Shown here piece by piece: positions 25,149 to 29,513 of a DNA stretch of 64,000 bases. A program made the translations under genes and the position numbers. Each line of letters opens with the position of its first letter. Positions within the stretch are counted from its first letter, which is position 1. The notes under the pieces were generated by a model. The model had not been told where the DNA came from. It saw only the letters and a program-made list of their open reading frames with translations, and did no database searches. This stretch comes from Oricola cellulosilytica. GTDB lineage: Bacteria; Pseudomonadota; Alphaproteobacteria; Rhizobiales; Rhizobiaceae. The stretch covers positions 124,001-188,000 of the forward strand of contig NZ_JAINFK010000003.1 in NCBI RefSeq assembly GCF_019966575.1, given 5' to 3'.

Positions 25149-26687
25149 TCAGCCGCCCTTGCCGACGACACGGGTGTCGATTTCGAGCGGATAGCGGCGG
25201 CCCGCCGCCTGCCACCGCTGCAACACGGTATCGCGAACCTTTTCGACCCGCCGCGATGCAAGTTCCTCCGATTCGCGATTGGCGAAATATGTGAGCCGCA
25301 GGAGCGAGGGCTGTCTGTCGAGCACCGAGATCAATCGGGTGATGTCCTCCGCTAGGCTCGTATCCGGCTCTTCGGTCTCGCCGATGAAGGCTGCAGCGTT
25401 GACGTCCACGCGGACGATTTGGGCGCTCGCCGCGCCGAAGGCCATGCGGGCAGTCTCGCCGCGCCCCACGCGGACGCGCATCGGATTTGGAGTGGTCACG
25501 AAATAACCGTCGGGCAGGGTTTCGGCTTCGAGCTTGAGTTCAAGATCGACTCCGCCGAGACGCGATGCGGTTACGCAGGGGGACGCGTAACGTCCATCTT
25601 GTGCGGTCGTCATCGGCAATCCGATCTCCGGCGCAATACGGACACCGGCGATTCCCGGTTCCCCGTCATCAAGTTCGCCATCGCGATCCGCATCGTCAAA
25701 TACGTGCAGGGCGACGCCGGCACATGACGGCTCGGCATCGGGCGCCGTCCTCACCGAAGCATCCGCTTCCGGTATCAGTCTGATTTCGGTGCGCCGATCG
25801 AGCAAAGCGGCCCTCACGGTGAGAACGGAGGGCGGCAGGTCGTTCTTGACGCGCGCCGAAAAGCGCATTTCTCCGGTGCTGTTCGCCGGAACGGCGAGGT
25901 TGTTGGCGATCAGGCGGCCGGCCTCTGTCCGCAGATGAAGCCGGCCTGCGCCGGCCTCCCCCGAGGTGGCGGAATATTCCATCCCCTCCGGAAATTCGAC
26001 TACAAGCATCGCGTTCATATCGACCGCGCTGCGGTTAAAGGCGGTGACGGCGAAATCGACAGTTCCGCCTGGAAGGACCTCCTCCTCCCCGGCCGTAAGC
26101 GCGATCGCCAGGTCAGACGGATCGATGCCGAGAAGTGGCGGCAGCGCTATGCGCGCGAAAGTTTCCGCAAGCACCCGCTCTCCGGCAGCGGTTCCGGACA
26201 CCGCTACGCGCAGCGTGATGTCGTCCCCGCTTTCAATATTCATGCGCGACAGCTCGTGCCGGACTGCAAACGTACGAGTTGCCCCGACGGCCAAGCCGCC
26301 TGCGGCAGCTTGATCCTTTGCGGCCACGGAAGGGTCCGGCTGTGGACGCCCGGACTGATCGGCTTCGGTCTCGAACGTCAGTTCGCTGACGGCAATGTCA
26401 CCGATATTTTCCACGGTCAGTTCCAGAACGACGCTGTCGCCGGGTGAGAGTCCCTCCTGGCCGTCATCGTCGATGATCTTCGAATTACTGACGGCCCGGA
26501 TCCTCGGCGACGCCGGCGAAACCTCGATCTCCACCCGAGCCACGGGCGATGACAGCGACTGACCGGCATAAACTCCCGCCGCCGTCGCCTCATTGGTGAT
26601 ATCGGCGGCCGCGACCGCAACAGAGGCAAAGGTCGACAGTGCACCGAGGACCAGCCGGCGGACGGCGCGATAAGATCGCGGCGCCAT
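25149..26687 (-). CDS. Exported DUF11/SdrD-B-type repeat protein with OmpA-like C-terminus
   Basis: ATG 26687 is preferred because it begins a signal peptide (Arg-Arg-Leu-Val-Leu-Gly-Ala-Leu, cut near Val-Ala-Ala-Ala). The 512-residue protein has immunoglobulin-like segments of the DUF11 type (about 50-160 and 190-300). Next is an SdrD-B/CnaB-like unit (about 325-400) with a perfect EF-hand-type loop, Asp-Asp-Ala-Asp-Arg-Asp-Gly-Glu-Leu-Asp-Asp-Gly-Glu. The last ~100 residues, with Leu-Thr-Tyr-Phe-Ala-Asn-Arg-Glu-Ser-Glu-Glu-Leu-Ala-Ser-Arg-Arg, look like an OmpA-type module. It is probably a surface or periplasmic structural protein; the role is unknown. Pairs with the next upstream gene. 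Confidence 0.75.
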   Translation of the reverse strand: MAPRSYRAVRRLVLGALSTFASVAVAAADITNEATAAGVYAGQSLSSPVARVEIEVSPASPRIRAVSNSKIIDDDGQEGLSPGDSVVLELTVENIGDIAVSELTFETEADQSGRPQPDPSVAAKDQAAAGGLAVGATRTFAVRHELSRMNIESGDDITLRVAVSGTAAGERVLAETFARIALPPLLGIDPSDLAIALTAGEEEVLPGGTVDFAVTAFNRSAVDMNAMLVVEFPEGMEYSATSGEAGAGRLHLRTEAGRLIANNLAVPANSTGEMRFSARVKNDLPPSVLTVRAALLDRRTEIRLIPEADASVRTAPDAEPSCAGVALHVFDDADRDGELDDGEPGIAGVRIAPEIGLPMTTAQDGRYASPCVTASRLGGVDLELKLEAETLPDGYFVTTPNPMRVRVGRGETARMAFGAASAQIVRVDVNAAAFIGETEEPDTSLAEDITRLISVLDRQPSLLRLTYFANRESEELASRRVEKVRDTVLQRWQAAGRRYPLEIDTRVVGKGG

Positions 26688-26739
26688 GGTTCGGCCTAGT
26701 CCGTAATCCGGATTATCGGCGAAATCGCGATGGATGCCC

Positions 26740-27726
26740 TCACTGCGCCTCGAACTCGGCCTGAGTGACCGTGTGGTTATAGGTGAAGGTAATCGCGCCT
26801 CCTGCTCCGAGGACGTCCCACGATCCGTTGGTTCCGCTTGTGTCGTCATTCAGTTCAAGCACATCGGCCTTCAGTTCGGTTTCATTCCACGGCCCGGTCT
26901 CGACGCCACCGGCCTCAGCCGATAGCAGGGTGCTTCCCTCATGCAAATCGGAAATAGTGACGGCGGTGATCGCCACGTTGCCGATATTCGAAACGGTGTA
27001 GACATATGAAATCGTGTCGCCCGTCTCTGCGCCGGTGCCGGAATTGCCATCGGCCTTGGCAAGAGTGGCCTCCTTGGTCAGCGACAGGCGTGGATTTGCC
27101 ATGACCGCTACCGAAGCCGACGCATCAGCCGCTACCGCACCCGAAGGACCATCGCCGGCGGCGGACGCCGTGGCAAGAATGCCATCCTCGCGCCCGGCCG
27201 AACGGAACACGTCCGCCGCACTCAGCGTAAAGGAGGCCGTAAATTCCTGGGCCGCTCCCGGTTCGATTGCTGCGGAGGATGGATCGAACTCAGACAGCGT
27301 TCCCGTTGCGGCAACGCCGTCAATGGAGAATATTGCGGCCGCCTGCACGCCGGTGACGCTAACGTTGCCCTCATTGCGCACGCTGACGGAAACGATGACG
27401 CGGTCGCCCGCATCCGCGGCGTCCGAATCCTCTCCGCCCGACACATCGAGCACGCCGGTGGCTGTTGCTGAAAGCGTCGCGACCGCCGGCTCGACATCAA
27501 CGGCGGCAGGCGCGTCCGGCGTTTCGACGGTCGTTCCCTCGTGAGTGCCCGCAGCCCTGGCGACGTTGTCGATGGCGGCATAAGCGGTGGACGCGGGGAA
27601 AGCCGCGGGCAATATCAATACGAGGACCGCGGGCAGATCCTTGAGGGATCTCACCGCTGCGTCGACAGGTGGCAAGACGTGAAAGTTCAAAAAGCCTTGG
27701 CAAGTCGCCGCTATCAAAGTCCCCAT
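26740..27726 (-). CDS. Exported DUF11-type repeat protein
   Basis: Start 27726 is chosen because GGGAGG lies seven bases upstream. The N-terminus then has a hydrophobic stretch ending Phe-Pro-Ala-Ser-Thr-Ala-Tyr-Ala-Ala (about residue 50), an unusually long signal peptide or anchor. The mature part is acidic, rich in Ala, Thr, Val and Asp, and poor in Cys. It has two repeats of the type Asp-Thr-Ile-Ser-Tyr-Val-Tyr-Thr-Val-Ser-Asn-Ile-Gly-Asn-Val, which mark DUF11-like immunoglobulin domains (about 120-220 and 230-325). It is likely an extracellular matrix or adhesion component, co-transcribed with the DUF11/OmpA gene 52 bases downstream. Confidence 0.7.
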   Translation of the reverse strand: MGTLIAATCQGFLNFHVLPPVDAAVRSLKDLPAVLVLILPAAFPASTAYAAIDNVARAAGTHEGTTVETPDAPAAVDVEPAVATLSATATGVLDVSGGEDSDAADAGDRVIVSVSVRNEGNVSVTGVQAAAIFSIDGVAATGTLSEFDPSSAAIEPGAAQEFTASFTLSAADVFRSAGREDGILATASAAGDGPSGAVAADASASVAVMANPRLSLTKEATLAKADGNSGTGAETGDTISYVYTVSNIGNVAITAVTISDLHEGSTLLSAEAGGVETGPWNETELKADVLELNDDTSGTNGSWDVLGAGGAITFTYNHTVTQAEFEAQ

Positions 27727-27869: not shown

Positions 27870-28331
27870 CTACTGAGCGATCGCGGCGGCTTCCAGCTTG
27901 TCGAGACCAAGCAGCAGCGTGATGTTGTCGCTCGGCCGCGCGAGATCGGCGACGGTGTAGCGGTCGAGGACTGCAAAAAAAGCGTTCAACGCCTCGCGCA
28001 GCGCGGAAGACAACCGGCAGGAATCCATCAGCGGGCAGTCGGCATCCTCGTTCTCGAAGCACTCGGCCATGTTGAAGTTGTCTTCGGTGAGACGAACGAC
28101 ATCGAGCAGAGTAATCTCGGTCGCCGGACGCGCCAGTTTGAGGCCTCCGTTTCTTCCCCTAACTGTCGTGATCAGCCCGCCCTCGTTAAGGGGCTGAAGG
28201 ATTTTGAACAAAAACGGCTCCGAGACCGCATAGGAACGCGCAATATCGGCAACGCGGCTCAGTCGACGGTCGTTGGCGGCGCAGTAGATCAGTATCCGAA
28301 AGGCATAATTCGTCTGTTTTGTCAGGCGCAT
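27870..28331 (-). CDS. rirA: Rhizobial iron regulator RirA (Rrf2 family)
   Basis: A 153-residue Rrf2 protein starting Met-Arg-Leu-Thr-Lys-Gln-Thr-Asn-Tyr-Ala, as RirA does. It has the winged helix Phe-Leu-Phe-Lys-Ile-Leu-Gln-Pro-Leu with Val-Arg-Gly-Arg-Asn-Gly-Gly and the three cysteines that bind the iron-sulfur cluster (Cys91, Cys99, Cys105). RirA represses iron-uptake genes when iron is plentiful. A GGAG site is seven bases before the ATG, and an Irr-type ICE palindrome overlaps the promoter region. The adjacent divergent gene is an iron-binding protein with a RirA-type operator. Confidence 0.96.
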   Translation of the reverse strand: MRLTKQTNYAFRILIYCAANDRRLSRVADIARSYAVSEPFLFKILQPLNEGGLITTVRGRNGGLKLARPATEITLLDVVRLTEDNFNMAECFENEDADCPLMDSCRLSSALREALNAFFAVLDRYTVADLARPSDNITLLLGLDKLEAAAIAQ

Positions 28332-28364
28332 GGGTCTCTCCGTTAGGCCCTATATAGCCCATAG

Positions 28365-28381
28365 TTTGGAATCATTCCAGA
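28365..28381. promoter_or_regulatory. Irr-box/ICE-like palindrome between rirA and fbpA
   Basis: TTTGGAATCATTCCAGA fits the rhizobial iron control element TTTAGAAnnnTTCTAAA, with a G/C pair replacing A/T symmetrically in the third-from-outer position; the inner 13 bases TGGAATcATTCCA are a perfect palindrome. It lies 34-50 bases upstream of the rirA start and over its probable promoter, downstream of a minus-strand TTGACA. In related rhizobia Irr represses rirA when iron is low. Binding is inferred from sequence. Confidence 0.7.
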
Positions 28382-28445
28382 TAACCAAACTTTTTTTGTC
28401 AACTTTATTCTTGACACCGCGAAGCGCTATGAGGCAGTTGAAACA

Positions 28446-28460
28446 TGAGTGCAATACTCA
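28446..28460. promoter_or_regulatory. RirA-type iron-responsive operator (IRO) upstream of fbpA
   Basis: TGAGTGCAATACTCA matches the TGA-N9-TCA core of the RirA operator and has perfect 5-base arms. It lies between a TTGAAA -35-like hexamer (28438-28443) and a TTTAAA -10-like hexamer (28463-28468), 28 bases before the fbpA ATG, where a bound repressor would block transcription. The promoter hexamers would give a very short leader and are less certain than the operator. Confidence 0.7.
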
Positions 28461-28487
28461 CCTTTAAACCAACAACGGAGCCTTTCC

Positions 28488-29513
28488 ATGGCACTGCGTA
28501 TGCGCGTCCTAACAGCCGCACTATCCGCTTCAGTCGCACTTTCCGCCACGGCGGCCTTCGCCGACGGCGAACTGAACCTCTACTCCTCACGCCATTACGA
28601 CACCGACGAGCGTCTCTACTCCGATTTCGAGAAAGAGACCGGCATCAAGATCAACCGCATCGAAGGCAAGGCCGACGAGCTGATCGAACGCCTCAAGGCC
28701 GAAGGCGAAAACAGTCCGGCGGACGTGCTGCTGACGGTCGATGCCGGCCGCATATGGCGCGCCGCCGACGCGGAGCTTCTCGCTCCGGTCGAGAGCGAAG
28801 TGCTCGAGGAACGTATTCCGGAAGCGCTTCAGCATCCGGATAATCTGTGGTTCGGCTTCTCGACCCGCGCCCGCCTCGTCTTCTACAGCAAGGAACGCGT
28901 CTCCGAACCGCCACAGACCTATGCCGATCTCGCCGACCCGAAATACCAGGGGCAGGTCTGCGCGCGTTCGAGCTCGAATATCTACATGCTTTCGCTACTG
29001 GCGTCGCGGATCGCCAAGGACGGCGAGGAAGCTGCCGAGGCGTGGGCCCGGGGCCTGAAGGACAATCTCGCACGTGATCCCCAGGGTGGCGATACCGACC
29101 AGCTTCGCGGCATCGTGTCGGGCGAGTGCGACATTGCTGTCGCCAACAGCTATTACTTCGCCCGCGCCCTTCGCTCCGAAGTCGATGGACTTTCCGGCTC
29201 GATCGACCAGATCGGATGGGTTTTCCCCGATCAGGACGGTGACGGGACCCACATCAACGTATCGGCCGGCGCAGTCGTCAAGAATGCCCCGAACCGGGAA
29301 AATGCGGTCAAGTTCCTCGAATACCTCGCATCGGATTCGGCACAGGAATACTTTGCCGCCGGCAATGACGAGTATCCCGCAGTCGAGGGAGTGGGTCGGT
29401 CGGCTTCGGTCACCAAGCTCGGCGATTTCAAGGCAGACGATCTCAACCTGTCGGCGCTCGGCGAATATCAGGCCGCGGCGCAGGATATCTACAACAAGGT
29501 TGGCTACAAGTAG
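28488..29513 (+). CDS. fbpA: Periplasmic ferric-iron-binding protein (FbpA/FutA type)
   Basis: ATG 28488 follows AACGGAG and starts a signal peptide cut after Ala-Phe-Ala (about 22). The 341-residue protein is a class II periplasmic iron-binding protein: Leu-Asn-Leu-Tyr-Ser-Ser-Arg-His-Tyr-Asp at the mature N-terminus. Arg-Ala-Arg-Leu-Val-Phe-Tyr follows near residue 125 and Asn-Ser-Tyr-Tyr-Phe-Ala-Arg-Ala-Leu near 223, the paired tyrosines being typical iron ligands. It delivers Fe3+ to an inner-membrane permease. A RirA operator precedes it and a terminator follows; the permease gene is convergent rather than in the same operon. Confidence 0.92.
   Translation: MALRMRVLTAALSASVALSATAAFADGELNLYSSRHYDTDERLYSDFEKETGIKINRIEGKADELIERLKAEGENSPADVLLTVDAGRIWRAADAELLAPVESEVLEERIPEALQHPDNLWFGFSTRARLVFYSKERVSEPPQTYADLADPKYQGQVCARSSSNIYMLSLLASRIAKDGEEAAEAWARGLKDNLARDPQGGDTDQLRGIVSGECDIAVANSYYFARALRSEVDGLSGSIDQIGWVFPDQDGDGTHINVSAGAVVKNAPNRENAVKFLEYLASDSAQEYFAAGNDEYPAVEGVGRSASVTKLGDFKADDLNLSALGEYQAAAQDIYNKVGYK

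Follow-up and report, generated by a model that had tools for sequence, protein, structure and literature searches.

A gene pair of Oricola cellulosilytica with an open DUF7507 domain: a proposed two-component fibre formed by trans complementation

The Gene Pair and Its Domains

Two adjacent genes of the alphaproteobacterium Oricola cellulosilytica, here called gene 1 and gene 2, are described from a stretch of 64,000 nucleotides (contig NZ_JAINFK010000003.1, positions 124,001 to 188,000), which is referred to as the window and to which all coordinates belong. Both genes lie on the minus strand, and their products look exported and carry immunoglobulin-like (Ig) domains, as the initial annotation had proposed for this place. 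It had also suggested that the two genes belong together and might build a joint surface structure. The former was borne out when relatives were checked, the genes being adjacent, in the same order and at a single locus in 6/6 examined genomes of the genus (Oricola, Hyphomicrobiales), and the latter is judged likely. What that reading missed is that the last Ig domain of gene 1 is incomplete and that both proteins start with a hairpin-like segment. Gene 1 and gene 2 are proposed to form a two-component fibre through trans complementation of an Ig domain, with a probability of about 0.7. The features are collected in Table 1.

Table 1. Features of gene 1 and gene 2 with their window coordinates. 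Roles are predicted.
Feature	Position	Strand	Description
Gene 1	26740..27726	-	328 amino acids; putative exported shaft-like subunit with donor hairpin, one complete Ig domain and one incomplete acceptor Ig domain
Gene 1 donor hairpin	27493..27576	-	residues 51-78 (AIDNVARAAG...); begins at the signal-peptidase site as judged by eye
Gene 1 isopeptide Asn candidate N54	27565-27567	-	within the donor hairpin
Gene 1 complete Ig domain	27130..27426	-	DUF7507 model positions 13-102 of 105
Gene 1 acceptor domain	26743..27096	-	DUF7507 positions 1-83 of 105 (Pfam model), cut beside the stop codon
Gene 1 isopeptide Lys candidate K218	27073-27075	-	in the acceptor domain
Gene 1 catalytic Asp candidate D260	26947-26949	-	in the acceptor domain
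Conserved C-terminal end HTVTQAEFEAQ and stop	26740..26775	-	place where the last hairpin should follow
Gene 2	25149..26687	-	512 amino acids; putative exported cap/anchor with donor hairpin, two Ig domains, SdrD-B unit and C-terminal alpha/beta domain
Gene 2 donor hairpin	26520..26603	-	residues 29-56 (DITNEATAAG...); begins at the signal-peptidase site as judged by eye
Gene 2 Asn candidate N32	26592-26594	-	within the donor hairpin
Gene 2 first Ig domain	26181..26456	-	DUF7507-like, under the Pfam cut-off
Gene 2 second Ig domain	25848..26114	-	DUF11/CLIPPER-like
Gene 2 SdrD-B-like unit	25587..25706	-	EF-hand-type loop DADRDGELDDGE at 25659-25694
Gene 2 C-terminal domain	25152..25424	-	predicted beta-alpha-beta-alpha-beta, OmpA-like in topology only

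Gene 1 matches the Pfam family DUF7507 (CLIPPER_2, PF24346) with 69.8 bits over the whole protein, which passes the cut-off of 27 bits, and its acceptor domain alone scores 39.9 bits in the genome search. No other gene of this genome matches DUF7507; DUF11 is matched twice more, weakly (E 0.03) and below the cut-off. Gene 2 reaches 25.1 bits against DUF11, barely above the cut-off, and 21.6 bits against DUF7507, under it. An alternative start of gene 1 (GTG at 27654) would give a more typical signal peptide, as judged by eye. The mechanical open reading frame (ORF) of gene 2 starts at 26849 and falls inside gene 1.

An Open Last Domain Cut at a Conserved Position

The gene 1 protein ends with ...ITFTYNHTVTQAEFEAQ directly before the stop codon, a point past which intact tandem repeats continue with the consensus xxENTATATG..., the start of the final hairpin. 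The stop motif [VL][TS]Q[AE]E[FYI][ED]AQ-stop is common to the window gene and its seven aligned relatives.

The position of this cut was compared in relatives obtained by scanning public genomes with an alignment of the gene 1 family (best 80 of 86 relatives, 75 loci). A domain model of 100 positions was made from 291 intact domains, taken from 60 loci in which no split protein occurs. Of the 85 domain-bearing ORFs that run to a stop codon, 28 place the last domain at most 6 amino acids from it, and every one of these breaks off at model positions 84-86, as compared with 693 of 741 internal domains that end at positions 95-100. With more loci there are 43 ORFs whose last domain is at most 8 amino acids from the stop, all at positions 84-86 (44 including the window gene); the loci were retrieved via the motif just 5′ of the cut, without regard to the stop codon. 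Complete terminal domains fall outside the 6- and 8-residue counts because the model ends before the very last strand of the domain. The split is retained over several genera.

Donor Hairpins and Their Fit to the Acceptor

Judged by sequence, both mature proteins begin with a segment that resembles the hairpin missing from the acceptor. The position of these segments at the signal-peptidase site, as judged by eye, recurs in relatives, and a signal-peptide-like stretch stands immediately before the donor in each listed donor protein. The donor motifs were picked by pattern and by eye, in a list of 30 rows that is without the G737 anchor and the G601 shaft and anchor. The short end of gene 1 might be ascribed to gene decay, in which a long repeat protein has been broken by stop codons, and three relatives (L057, L060 and L061) do have the N-terminal and anchor parts as one long protein. 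Decay is nevertheless scarcely credible, given the signal-peptide-like stretch before each listed donor and the conservation of the split over several genera.

The gene 1 acceptor alone scores 49.5 bits against Pfam DUF7507; joined to the gene 1 donor it scores 61.8 bits and to the gene 2 donor 63.4 bits, whereas a control join with one shuffled donor gives 48.4 bits. In a shuffle test of 34 acceptor-donor pairs, the true donor was reached by none of 200 shuffles in 30 pairs. When all segments of 26 residues were ranked, the true donor came 1st of 302 in gene 1 and 1st of 486 in gene 2, and the next independent top segment in gene 1 was the corresponding hairpin from the complete first domain. 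By sequence, two marks of a donor-strand polymer are thus recognizable, namely, an Ig domain that is incomplete and an N-terminal segment that complements it.

The same results bear on two other readings. The short last domain may be a stable variant and the hairpin a cap, without strand exchange, so that the two products are separate monomeric surface proteins, as they had been pictured earlier. This reading gains from the fact that the exchange is deduced from sequence and models, and it loses from the tight stop position in 44 proteins, from Lys and Asp residues retained without a partner Asn in the same domain, and from donors that complete the domain; it is considered quite improbable. 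Alternatively, the gene 2 donor may fill the gene 1 acceptor 1:1, the gene 1 donor being idle or meant for an unseen partner, which would give a heterodimer and no long fibre. The gene 2 donor does score as well as that of gene 1, and the adjacency of the genes in all six genus genomes agrees with such a partnership. However, the gene 1 donor fits the gene 1 acceptor equally, and because the genome has no other DUF7507 gene to serve, it most likely serves this acceptor and would yield a homopolymer. A heterodimer only is therefore held to be unlikely.

Register and Structure Models

The distance from the donor Asn to the Lys column of the first domain could be measured in 20 rows and is 34-36 residues in 17 of them (16 of 19 distinct proteins), a spacing that is found in 351 of 566 internal steps. 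The remaining three rows, with a spacing of 41-43, belong to relatives without that Lys. No such distance is obtained from ten of the 30 donor rows, which include both window genes, and two rows (L070_6921 and L187_5083) are apparently the same protein. For the window genes the distance from Asn to the NxGN motif is 64 (gene 1) and 62 (gene 2) residues, the internal range being broad (49-81). The register data fit a donor that belongs to the preceding bead and sits on another chain.

The AlphaFold2 model of mature gene 1 has a predicted local distance difference test (pLDDT) value of 91 and a predicted template modelling (pTM) score of 0.75, and the N-terminal hairpin is modelled as strands with a pLDDT of about 95. 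Fold matches start at about residue 31 in most rows; in 48 of 50 the start is at residue 27 or beyond, and in the other two it is residue 1. Given the starting point in these 48, the first Ig domain does not seem to include the hairpin. Gene 1 fold searches matched Ig domains of integrins and antibodies and no specific relative. A PDB sequence search with the acceptor alignment gave nothing useful, and a phmmer search with the anchor of a relative gave no match.

The model also bears on a cis arrangement, in which the gene 1 hairpin folds into its own C-terminal domain and produces a closed, circularly permuted monomer that polymerises never or only upon activation, the latter as stated for TasA (PMC9715654). 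The high pLDDT of a hairpin outside the first-domain fold match may mean that it is docked within the chain. On the other hand, proteins with an acceptor only (clients) and anchors with a donor only coexist within one genome in relatives, and the linker from donor to domain is of tandem-array length in the same 17 of 20 rows. It is also the same in a one-domain protein of 181 amino acids (L185), which would seem to leave little room for closure within one domain. Closure in cis is regarded as a minor prospect.

Proposed Assembly

Gene 1 and gene 2 products probably join head to tail, because the last domain of gene 1 is unfinished and each protein starts with what resembles the missing piece. 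Sec export and subsequent removal of the signal peptides would free the N-terminal hairpins of both proteins. The hairpin of one gene 1 molecule would then fill the open C-terminal domain of the next, and so on into a head-to-tail polymer. Having a donor and no acceptor, gene 2 would end the chain and hold the polymer at the cell, acting both as cap and as anchor. The fibre probably serves in adhesion or biofilm formation.

A Possible Isopeptide Bond at the Joint

DUF11 and DUF7507 domains (CLIPPER and CLIPPER_2) are described as containing a Lys-Asn isopeptide bond with an Asp catalyst, solved for DUF11 and predicted for DUF7507, and the bond Asn sits near the end of the CLIPPER domain (PMC12617251). 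Among intact domains, Lys, Asp and Asn occur together in 744 of 792. The last domain of gene 1 was considered as an intramolecular isopeptide domain and rejected: K218 and D260 are present, but the chain stops before the Asn position. Although this position is missing, 31 acceptors aligned with MAFFT have Lys in 28 and Asp in 27. An alignment to the hidden Markov model gives Lys and Asp in 40 of 44 acceptors but shifts the Lys column in two relatives, for which MAFFT was used. Asn is present in 25 of the 30 donor rows (24 of 29 distinct proteins); the other five have Ser. The window has all the residues concerned, namely, K218, D260, N54 and N32.

A covalent lock at the joint, comparable to a natural tag/catcher pair, is possible because most acceptors keep Lys and Asp and most donors carry Asn. 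With less certainty than the assembly itself, an intermolecular Lys-Asn bond would thus lock the joint where the acceptor Lys/Asp and the donor Asn are present. A larger claim can be made with somewhat less than even confidence: that an isopeptide Ig domain is naturally split in a bacterium, with Lys and Asp in an open C-terminal domain and Asn in the hairpin of the next protein, so that a covalent joint would form without sortase, chaperone or usher. Under the same claim, the arrangement would in relatives also serve as a socket, in which a number of unlinked adhesins that share this open C-terminus compete for one anchored donor.

Points That Weigh against the Proposal

Several observations count against the fibre or against its covalent joint. 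Six more ORFs have their last domain 7-24 amino acids from the stop, with model ends at 94, 94, 94, 99, 82 and 47; at least four of them are apparently complete, and the one ending at 47 holds masked bases. In one genome of the phylum sample described below, ORFs end at model position 47, 10 amino acids before the stop. The evidence for truncation is the tight cluster at positions 84-86, rather than a score of 44 of 44. In the shuffle test, four of the 34 joins failed or nearly failed (2/200, 1/200 and, for two L070 joins, 170/200 and 181/200). The two L070 joins score under the acceptor alone and are counted as failures; the probable cause is that HMMER divides that domain into two parts. The structure models are of monomers, in which the gene 1 hairpin could sit in its own C-terminal domain. 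No route for display or for export across the outer membrane is apparent: no usher (PF00577) is matched in this genome at E 0.01, with a positive E. coli control genome, and in the six Oricola genomes no relative was found of a barrel-like protein that stands beside the anchors of other relatives (see below).

As for the isopeptide bond, the triad columns were equated with the residues of the published work via position and conservation, not by structural alignment. Three genus relatives are without the acceptor Lys and Asp (T/V, T/V and S/V), the acceptor of G006 has Lys without Asp and the donor of its anchor has Ser, and two relatives that keep Lys and Asp have Ser, not Asn, in the gene 2 donor. 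A general occurrence of the bond is excluded by these losses of the acceptor Lys/Asp or of the gene 2 donor Asn in some relatives. Two of the three genus relatives without Lys and Asp also have Ser in the gene 1 donor, and the correlated loss of Lys/Asp and Asn across relatives is suggestive, within few lineages.

The Wider System in Relatives

The relatives hold further combinations of donor and acceptor. L072, L185 and L186 each have three consecutive proteins with both (shafts), the single-domain protein mentioned above being among them. Consecutive shaft genes in L185 and L186 differ, with two types of C-terminal end (xG and LQ/RQ), and may form an ordered heteropolymer. Acceptor-only clients number at least five in G026, one with a LamG lectin domain, and four in G054; other clients carry SpaA prealbumin arrays of up to 20 copies. 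A client of 2736 amino acids (L195:2725-10932) has 20 SpaA_4 prealbumin stretches followed by the same cut DUF7507 domain at the end. By their sequences, these clients look adhesin-like. The relatives also have anchors with a donor and an OmpA-like end.

In G679, G520, G601 and G737 one or more shafts are followed by the anchor and by a barrel-like protein of about 1200 amino acids, the clients being on other contigs. This barrel-like family lies directly 3′ of long anchors (e.g., L057:11713-15366 and L185:2523-6077) and is present in seven of 61 relatives searched. The L185 copy has no Pfam match at 1e-3, and two other copies have weak matches only. The barrel-like protein is a candidate export or docking partner. 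Fused forms occur as well: besides the three long chains mentioned above, L062 has the anchor fused to the barrel-like protein.

Sixteen genomes were inspected at both ends (G000-G006, G026, G030, G054, G520, G601, G679, G695, G737 and the genome of L072), and a donor-like N-terminus is present in every one, carried by an anchor or by a fragment of what may be an anchor. It is cut by a contig edge in G006, G054 and G695, and the donor of the G737 anchor has Asp at the Asn position. In G054, where clients were at first seen without a donor, a donor-bearing N-terminus was then sought and found at the contig edge. Up to eight acceptor-bearing genomes (L074/L087, L077, L083, L091, L095, L097, L100 and L112), some of which may coincide with genomes listed under G handles, were left out of the donor search.

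In a class sample at the strict threshold of 1e-10, 1/385 genomes was matched, the window's own. An order sample at 1e-6 gave 17/397 genomes, seven of which, the window's included, have a split protein in the loci examined. A phylum sample at 1e-8 gave 10/398 genomes, with a visible stop in six of 31 domain ORFs and none at the split position.

The Remaining Domains of Gene 2

The AlphaFold2 model of gene 2 (pLDDT 79.5) begins at residue 37, eight residues into the donor, which starts at residue 29, so that the low confidence at its N-terminus cannot serve as a control for the gene 1 hairpin. An Ig domain of gene 2 matches Gram-positive pilins such as EbpB and LrpA with Z about 13 and the CLIPPER crystal structure 9ifr with Z 12.7 over 119 residues, the latter match being assigned to the second Ig domain.

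The perfect EF-hand-type loop that had been noted in the SdrD-B-like unit is present as DADRDGELDDGE. The unit scores 18.0 bits against Pfam SdrD_B and does not reach the cut-off of 29.7, and a profile of gene 2 and five relatives matches the B region of Staphylococcus aureus SdrD with E 1.1e-8, the DxDxDGxxDxxE loop included. The special calcium role suggested for the loop is not upheld, as the profile match to SdrD spans it and marks it as the usual SdrD-B loop.

The C-terminus had been called OmpA-like and a possible tie to peptidoglycan. The predicted topology fits the first of these claims, since the AlphaFold2 model has the beta-alpha-beta-alpha-beta order of the OmpA fold, but sequence comparison does not. 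The Pfam OmpA model (PF00691) finds five OmpA domains in the genome and none in gene 2, hhalign of the gene 2 C-terminus against these five gives a probability of 0.3%, and a PDB profile search places the OmpA-like part of OprF at E 0.34, below a designed protein. OmpA identity by sequence was thus rejected. Among the 50 matches listed in a fold search with the whole gene 2 model there is no OmpA structure; Ig domains fill the list. Neither is the tie to peptidoglycan sustained, as sequence profiles do not find OmpA and the Asp of the OmpA ‘TD’ position is absent from gene 2.

Relation to Known Systems

A sortase-assembled pilus was considered and rejected: no C-terminal LPXTG-type signal was seen by eye, gene 1 ending in EFEAQ and gene 2 in VVGKGG. 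The nearest working precedent, by analogy, is the archaeal thread (Saci_0406/0405). Its head-to-tail donor-strand filament starts from the signal-peptidase site, an isopeptide bond links its subunits to one another, and its putative cap has a donor and lacks an acceptor, as proposed here (PMC9715654). The archaeal thread differs in its subunit and in the bond, which joins the N-terminal amine to an Asn two subunits away (PMC9715654). The system described here has instead a hairpin donor, a Lys-Asn-Asp triad in CLIPPER_2 and, in its anchor, an alpha/beta domain at the C-terminus, and its host is a two-membrane bacterium. Chaperone-usher pili follow the same logic of tip adhesin, shaft and base, the N-terminus of the next subunit filling in an Ig domain that is incomplete (PMC9715654). 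Unlike these pili, the pair has a DUF7507 domain, a two-strand hairpin donor and a genome without an usher.

TasA and TapA fibres belong to a different type of organism, their fold differs from that of the DUF7507 system, and we know of no isopeptide triad in them. They resemble the proposal in having a secreted subunit and donor-strand exchange (PMC9674648, PMC9715654). The CLIPPER and CLIPPER_2 fibrillar adhesins share the domain family and the same kind of Lys, Asp and Asn residues, but have domain and bond within one chain (PMC12617251), whereas here the domain would be split between chains. The solved CLIPPER protein is named OmpA-like domain-containing in the PDB. F-ENA spore appendages share DUF11 domains in the fibre anchor; unlike here, fibre and anchor meet through DUF4183 domains, and in the available text of that paper ‘donor strand’ occurs in the references only (PMC11952670). 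SpyTag/SpyCatcher and related split isopeptide domains have a part supplied in trans, as proposed here, but are engineered, whereas a natural arrangement is proposed for the present pair (PMC6539128, PMC5487036). Among the papers listed in searches of the open-licence literature of PubMed Central, none concerns a split DUF11/DUF7507 domain or a donor-strand fibre of this type.

If the proposal is true, it provides a further route to a donor-strand fibre in a two-membrane bacterium whose genome has no usher, and a natural counterpart of engineered tag/catcher tools. ‘DUF11 domain’ proteins with seemingly arbitrary C-termini would gain a meaning and could be recognized by a stop after VTQxxxDxxQ or xG and by a donor at the signal-peptidase site.

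Genomic Surroundings

PADLOC gave no match, and a defence function is without support. A sigma-70-type scan at gene 1 found no promoter-like site. In 6/6 genomes of the genus the pair lies 3′ of an Rrf2-type regulator gene (rirA) and 5′ of glpK; in the window an aquaporin gene stands in between. The relatives placed in the same genus include Oricola nitratireducens, O. indica and two metagenome-assembled genomes. The location next to rirA, pointed out earlier, was confirmed, with gene 1 directly downstream of the Rrf2-family (rirA-type) gene on the same strand. It is possible that this regulator puts the fibre genes under iron control. The rirA-type gene is divergent from a gene for a solute-binding protein (window 27870-29513).

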